Shown: one piece after another, positions 7,932 through 20,065 of the stretch | Numbering within the stretch: position 1 is the stretch's first letter | Layout of the letters: the number at the start of each line of letters is the position of its first letter | Notes under the pieces: generated by a model | Database searches by the model: none | Told to the model about the DNA's origin: nothing | Seen by the model: only the letters and a program-made list of their open reading frames with translations | NCBI GenBank assembly: GCA_030610945.1 | Contig: JAUWQV010000002.1 | Location: 92,633-156,632, forward strand | Direction of reading: 5' to 3' | DNA: 64,000 nt | Source of the DNA: Methanocellales archaeon | GTDB lineage: Archaea; Halobacteriota; UBA148; JAUWXC01 | Program-made: the position numbers and the translations under genes

Positions 7932-8061
7932 GCGGGGGTCGCCAAGTCTGGTCAATAACCTTTTTGGTCAAGCTTTTTGCTTGCAAAAAGGTTGGGCTAA
8001 AGGCGCAGCGTTCAGGGCGCTGTCCCGTAGGGGTTCGAGGGTTCAAATCCCTTCCCCCGCA
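7932..8061 (+). tRNA. tRNA-Leu(CAG), class II, with a predicted 45-nt intron in the D-loop (7956-8000)
   Basis: Acceptor GCGGGGG/CCCCCGC+A; D-stem GCC/GGC; anticodon arm CAGCG-TTCAGGG-CGCTG; variable arm TCCCGTAGGGGTTC; T-arm GAGGG-TTCAAAT-CCCTT. Removing 7956-8000 leaves an 85-nt standard Leu tRNA. Confidence 0.9.
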
Positions 8062-8124
8062 CCTTTTTCTTTAGAGAAGATTTAGAGAAGAAAAAGCTGC
8101 ACCAAAAAGAAATCCTGTTTTGAT

Positions 8125-8172
8125 GAAACTTTTTTGAAAAGTTTCCGAGGGTTCAAATCCCGCTCGCCCGCA
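8125..8172 (+). pseudogene. Orphan tRNA 3' end (T-arm plus acceptor strand) fused to a 9-bp hairpin
   Basis: GAAACTTTTTTGAAAAGTTTC hairpin followed by CGAGGGTTCAAATCCCGCTCGCCCGCA; 16 nt CGAGGGTTCAAATCCC identical to the tRNA-Leu T-arm region; no 5' half visible. Confidence 0.55.
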
Positions 8173-19964: not shown

Positions 19965-20065
19965 GGGCCGGTAGCTTAGCCAGGCGGAGCGATGGGCTCT
20001 TAACCTTTGTCAAAAGTACAGTGAGAGAGACCCATAGGTCAGGGGTTCAAATCCCTTCCGGCCCG
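19965..20065 (+). tRNA. tRNA-Lys(CTT) with 27-nt intron after position 37 (20003-20029)
   Basis: Acceptor GGGCCGG/CCGGCCC+G; anticodon arm ATGGG-CTCTTAA-CCCAT interrupted; T-arm AGGGGTTCAAATCCCTT. CUCU/AGAG forms the 4-bp central helix of a canonical BHB. Confidence 0.95.

Follow-up and report, generated by a model that had tools for sequence, protein, structure and literature searches.

We analysed a stretch of 64,000 nt from a Methanocellales archaeon (henceforth referred to as the window; G000:C2:92633-156632), which belongs to an assembly of 992 kb in 7 contigs that is 82% complete by marker genes. The window contains a tRNA-Leu(CAG) gene (7932-8061) whose D-loop is split after nucleotide 24 by an insert of 45 nt (7956-8000). 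The comparative evidence strongly supports the identification of this insert as an intron, and places it at a site that appears to be ancestral to this order of small-genome Halobacteriota, where an old position holds exchangeable hairpin content. Very probably, the precursor is cut within its D-loop by an alpha'2-type endonuclease and joined by RtcB, and the hairpin is a fast-changing module, whose most likely route of replacement would be DNA recombination or gene conversion.

The insert in tRNA-Leu(CAG) occupies a site conserved across the order

An initial annotation of the window, made from its sequence, had described this gene together with its junctions and spliced product, all of which we found to be exact in sequence and coordinates: excision of 7956-8000 leaves an ordinary 85-nt class II tRNA with anticodon CAG. 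Exon 1 (7932-7955, + strand), comprising the acceptor 5' strand, the D-stem 5' strand and the D-loop up to GGTCAA, aligns with the other interrupted Leu genes of the order, and exon 2 (8001-8061, + strand) supplies the rest of the D-arm, the anticodon CAG, the variable arm, the T-arm and the acceptor. The predicted intron (+ strand) lies between D-loop nucleotides 21 and 22 in our own Sprinzl numbering and holds a 37-nt palindromic hairpin module, AACCTTTTTGGTCAAGCTTTTTGCTTGCAAAAAGGTT (7957-7993, + strand), which recurs in other tRNA introns, often inverted. Folded alone, the insert forms the long hairpin that had been proposed for it (-17.6 kcal/mol, z = -3.2). ARAGORN reported no tRNA in the window. 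An Rfam scan of the window detected only a tRNA-Lys at 19965-20065, missing tRNA-Leu(CAG), and gave no match to group I or II introns, whose conserved catalytic core this insert of just 45 nt lacks.

To compare this site with its relatives, a Leu query was used to retrieve tRNA-Leu genes across the order, and 37 readable genes were extracted from 11 genomes, which include the complete genomes of Met33H (G003, same genus as the source) and Met12 (G004, same order). Genomes G001 and G002 also belong to the genus of the source. Met12 is a non-methanogenic archaeon from the serpentinised springs of The Cedars with a genome of 1,067,436 bp (PMC11176372); Methanocella paludicola, with a genome of 2,957,635 bp (PMC3146512), was counted only as belonging to the same phylum, not to the same order. 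A D-loop insert of 28-216 nt stands at the identical position in 35 of the 37 genes, and in Met33H all five Leu isoacceptors (CAG, GAG, CAA, TAG and TAA) carry one. With this one position interrupted in 35 Leu genes from 11 genomes, chance can be excluded as the origin of the insert. In one of the two genes without it, Leu(TAG) of G001, the sequence is GCCAAGTCAGGCTAAAGGC, identical to the predicted product of splicing; the other (G007 C46, L131) has a different D-loop, lies on a short contig and may be foreign to its genome. Outside the order, all 21 readable Leu genes are uninterrupted at that site and have the predicted spliced D-loop. An alignment of related tRNA-Leu genes, which the initial annotation had proposed as a check, therefore agrees with its reading in both insert position and spliced product. 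The longest insert, in Met12 Leu(GAG) (L122, G004:C1:139250-139800), is 216 nt long and contains several hairpins.

We considered whether the gene might be decaying as a pseudogene while a functional copy exists elsewhere, as an orphan tRNA 3' fragment ~85 nt downstream might suggest. This is scarcely credible: all arms pair, the exons are conserved and a second intact tRNA-Leu(CAG), named in the initial annotation among the observations that could speak against an intron, was not found by searches of the source assembly, whereas the sole tRNA-Leu(CAG) found in the complete Met33H genome is interrupted too.

A covarying helix marks the predicted splice junctions

In the predicted fold of the unspliced gene (z = -5.05; 0 of 200 shuffles as stable), GGUC in exon 1 (7950-7953, + strand) pairs with GGCU near the 3' end of the intron (7995-7998, + strand), forming a 4-bp central helix; each junction has an AA bulge, and the 3' one (AA|A) occupies 7999-8001. 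The minimum fold computed for the mature tRNA with ViennaRNA was not a cloverleaf and was not used as evidence; such minimum folds of tRNAs commonly miss the cloverleaf. There is an ambiguity of 2 nt in the cut point, as ..CAA|T and ..TAA|A can be shifted to yield an identical product, and we chose AA|U and AA|A because the bulge-helix-bulge rule selects them. In 29 distinct sequences, 98.3% of the 116 cells are paired between exon GG(T/C)(C/T) and the four intron nucleotides that precede the 3' bulge, and UA, CG and UG pairs all occur at helix position 12-31. Just one of 500 shuffles matched the observed percentage paired or the covariation score, a control that is weakened by the relatedness of the sequences; controls with slid partners were 7-64% paired. 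With the inner helix paired, the bulges are 3 nt long, AA|N and in most cases AA|A, and the motif is near-canonical. The window copy likewise has two 3-nt bulges and the 4-bp helix at its junctions, with one extra G (7994) adjoining the inner helix. Both the GGUC/GGCU pairing and this extra G had been pointed out in the initial annotation, and both are real; the G is common to Met33H Leu-TAA, yet most relatives do without it and have a clean 3-4-3 motif.

A stable hairpin could in principle be retained, the tRNA working with an extended D-arm, and it is true that the insert folds by itself and that the evidence for splicing is comparative. We regard this as very improbable. Among Leu genes the insert ranges from 28 to 216 nt in length and is missing altogether from one clear relative, and the covariation of the central helix is just what a splice motif would require. 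The endonuclease and RtcB are encoded, and the same modules are also found in other tRNAs at the canonical position 37/38, from which they have to be spliced. The reading of the insert as a D-loop intron thus stands on the order-wide site, the intron-less relative that equals the spliced form, the covarying helix and the encoded enzymes.

The source genome encodes an alpha'2-like endonuclease and is rich in tRNA introns

The gene for the splicing endonuclease, whose two PF01974 repeats are spanned by C2:59180-59965, encodes 348 aa from the first ATG. Its best matches in the Protein Data Bank (PDB) are the alpha'2 enzymes of Archaeoglobus fulgidus, and, as in these, two homologous repeats lie in one chain of ~350 aa with the presumed active site in the second. 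Residues Y261, H295 and K326 are invariant, and by our own assignment would form the catalytic triad. The protein is without the loop inserted in chimera 3p1y, which we take to be the crenarchaeal specificity loop, and without insertion relative to relatives outside the order. An epsilon2 enzyme (three units, ~390 aa) or a loop-bearing relaxed endonuclease was ruled out by the length of 348 aa, the best match to A. fulgidus and the missing insert. The PDB match, together with a search for relatives, also led us to discard an ARMAN-type (DPANN) host with an epsilon2 enzyme. RtcB is also encoded in the source genome.

By hand count, introns are present in 23 of the 39 tRNA genes found in the source genome. 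In Euryarchaeota, fewer than 10% of tRNAs have been described as containing introns, one each and at the canonical position only, together with alpha4 or alpha2 enzymes (PMC4090602), and the present lineage therefore breaks that generalisation. The window's other intron-containing tRNA is the tRNA-Lys(CTT) at 19965-20065 (+ strand), with an intron in the anticodon loop. Elsewhere in the genome, tRNA-Ala(GGC) (L039, G000:C4:156548-156675) apparently has two introns, and tRNA-Ile(GAT) (L025, G000:C4:156784-156875), 92 nt long, has an odd D-arm region that is identical in Met33H and perhaps holds a further non-canonical intron.

Hairpin modules differ between close relatives

All 39 source tRNAs were aligned with those of Met33H. 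Exons and flanks are nearly identical, whereas 8 of the 23 introns differ at the module level by our count from the alignments. The Arg-TCT intron is missing to the base in Met33H, as is a 27-nt hairpin of Asn-GTT; Leu-CAA and the CAT3 tRNA have the same ~45-nt expansion in the source and none in Met33H; and the introns of Glu-TTC, Thr-TGT, Ser-TGA and Leu-CAG have had their content replaced or rearranged. The Met33H orthologue of the window gene (L116) has an upstream flank identical at 133 of 134 positions and contains an intron of the GTTGACGGAAAA family instead; in Ser-TGA the two families are assigned the other way round. The window intron is nearly identical to that of Met33H Leu-TAA, and G001 Leu-CAG contains the window module inverted. 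A stretch of 90 nt is 100% identical between the anticodon intron of the CAT3 tRNA and the D-loop intron of Leu-CAA. These comparisons indicate that the hairpin is an exchangeable module, its exchange being visible as sequence difference between close relatives.

Within the window, family modules match only tRNA genes and one tRNA fragment. The latter (8146-8172, + strand) is an orphan T-arm and acceptor 3' strand, CGAGGGTTCAAATCCCGCTCGCCCGCA, joined directly to a hairpin module of the TTTCATCAAAA family (8118-8144, - strand) that lies outside any complete tRNA and matches the modules of the Gly-TCC, Glu-TTC and Arg-TCT introns. The orthologous loci in G001 and Met33H have neither the fragment nor the adjoining module, and a search for the parent tRNA of the fragment found none. 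In the source genome, TTTSATCAAAA has 9 matches, of which 5 are in tRNA introns, 1 is beside a tRNA-Leu and 3 are without a hairpin. A further pattern, TTGAYSRAAAA, was set aside as too loose: it gave 25 matches, compared with 10 for the control. The initial annotation had suggested that the hairpin might be a palindromic mobile element tolerated as an intron, and that copies of it be sought elsewhere. The first idea survives as an exchangeable hairpin in an old site, which is no rival to an intron; the search located family modules at other tRNA genes but no second copy of the window hairpin in the source genome.

With respect to how the modules move, we considered whether an excised intron could be reverse-spliced or ligated into another tRNA and then copied to DNA. 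Such RNA-borne spread, which concerns the movement step only, would account for the absence of the Arg-TCT intron from Met33H to the base and for identical intron sequence at different tRNA positions. It is nevertheless improbable, as inverted modules in the same intron site do not follow from insertion of a whole intron as RNA and, like the changes within introns (the 27-nt Asn hairpin and the ~45-nt expansions), look like events at the DNA level. We favour recombination or gene conversion between tRNA genes, because the window modules sit only at tRNA sequences and because the exon bases adjoining an intron differ with it.

A module core recurs in tRNA genes of other archaeal phyla

An exact search of Genome Taxonomy Database (GTDB) genomes with a 28-nt core of the module returned 75 stretches with 76 copies, 21 of a G variant and 55 of a one-letter T variant. 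Automatic in-silico splicing assigned 12 of the 21 G-variant and 3 of the 55 T-variant copies to tRNA genes (Fisher p = 3e-6). Read by eye, which counts contig-truncated and two-intron genes (L221 among them, checked by double splicing), the corresponding numbers in tRNA introns are 18/21 and 1/55. The G-variant core is identical in tRNA genes of Halobacteriota (the Met33H group) and of metagenome-assembled genomes (MAGs) of Woesearchaeota and Parvarchaeota, and in L161 (Parvarchaeota), L183 (Woesearchaeota) and L178 the module is covered by tRNAs that Rfam calls independently. Binning errors are possible in single MAGs (for example, the matches in Planctomycetota and WOR-3), though several Woesearchaeota assemblies agree. 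A megablast search of the hairpin against phage and plasmid collections gave no match. In Woesearchaeota L179, L188, L198 and L196 the introns that contain the module apparently interrupt serine-type tRNAs in the T-loop, where introns are rare, and at least some of these tRNAs have a second intron.

In Methanophagales (ANME-1) the T variant lies mainly between genes, and it also occurs in Methanosarcinales; in Methanophagales loci (L148-L220) it is often nested in a larger intergenic inverted repeat, AACCACGAGATTNCACAAGATTAACACAAAC...GTGTAATCTTGTGGT. Its 55 scattered copies, nearly all outside tRNAs, bring to mind an autonomous or trans-mobilised palindromic element, resembling miniature inverted-repeat transposable elements (MITEs) or repetitive extragenic palindromes (REPs), that enters many DNA sites and is tolerated in tRNA introns; one copy in an RNase P RNA gene of Met33H and the precise presence and absence of modules between sister species point the same way. 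As an account of the movement step, which is all that it concerns, we consider this rather unlikely: the window modules are confined to tRNA genes and one tRNA fragment, TTTSATCAAAA is found mostly at tRNA loci as given above, and no transposase or target-site duplication was identified, no systematic test for duplications having been made. The RNase P copy (L120, G003:C1:76550-76900) is the same hairpin module, placed within what reads as an RNase P RNA gene, and most f3 relatives match just the portion past the module. That the intron-dwelling palindromes form a mobile-element-like family which passes from one tRNA gene to another and has spread across archaeal phyla can be put forward only tentatively; the exact identity of the 28-nt core supports the crossing of phyla.

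Discussion

Overall, we propose that in the tRNA-Leu(CAG) precursor exon GGUC and intron GGCU would form a bulge-helix-bulge with bulges AA|U and AA|A, at which, judging from gene content, a homodimeric alpha'2-type endonuclease would cut and RtcB would ligate the exons. The module between the splice signals appears to be quickly replaced, inverted, expanded or lost while tRNA exons and flanking DNA barely change, most likely through DNA-level recombination or gene conversion between tRNA genes with related palindromes. Several points weigh against this proposal. The evidence for splicing comes from comparative sequence and not from RNA, and the recombination route is deduced from identity, not observed; the sequence counts are not independent, as Leu genes are paralogues and the species are related; the extra G at 7994 makes the motif of the window copy imperfect; and the genomes are mostly metagenome assemblies in which some hairpin differences are possibly assembly errors, though those of Met33H and Met12 are complete.

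The system resembles known archaeal bulge-helix-bulge tRNA introns in its junction motif and in the encoded EndA-family endonuclease and RtcB (PMC4090602, PMC4033280), but differs in that, in a Halobacteriota (Euryarchaeota) genome, Met33H, every Leu tRNA has a D-loop intron (compare PMC4090602). It also resembles the transposed tRNA introns of Thermoproteales type, as far as these are portrayed in the accounts of a 2010 study given by PMC4090602 and PMC10714607: near-identical introns occur in different tRNAs and positions, as here in the CAT3 and Leu-CAA tRNAs. Measured against those accounts, the phylum and the endonuclease type are different, sister genomes display module replacement, inversion and precise absence, and the core is also present in tRNA genes of the DPANN archaea. 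In Caldiarchaeum, a tRNA-Thr intron polymorphism indicates recent intron gain and is accompanied by a scattered fragment of a tRNA, to which the orphan T-arm at 8146-8172 can be compared; that case has been linked to an element of 1.8 kb with a recombinase (PMC3293823), whereas no such element was found here. The epsilon2 enzyme of ARMAN-2 and crenarchaeal loop-bearing enzymes likewise belong to lineages with introns at non-canonical tRNA positions (PMC12397907), but the present enzyme resembles alpha'2 and, compared with relatives that are poor in introns, shows no inserted loop. D-loop motifs that are mostly near-canonical (3-4-3) may dispense with a relaxed enzyme.

Standard tRNA detection can overlook these leucine tRNAs, a warning for surveys of tRNA genes. 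The comparison with Met33H catches turnover of intron content at high sequence identity, and the gain and movement of archaeal tRNA introns, a long-standing question, is therefore testable on before-and-after loci. If the modules do move as a family, tRNA splicing would render each insertion harmless. More generally, the results suggest that D-loop splicing can be needed for every Leu tRNA in an archaeal lineage that is not among the classical intron-rich groups, and, as this would be carried out by an endonuclease type described as strict, they bear on the view that intron positions are limited by the type of enzyme.
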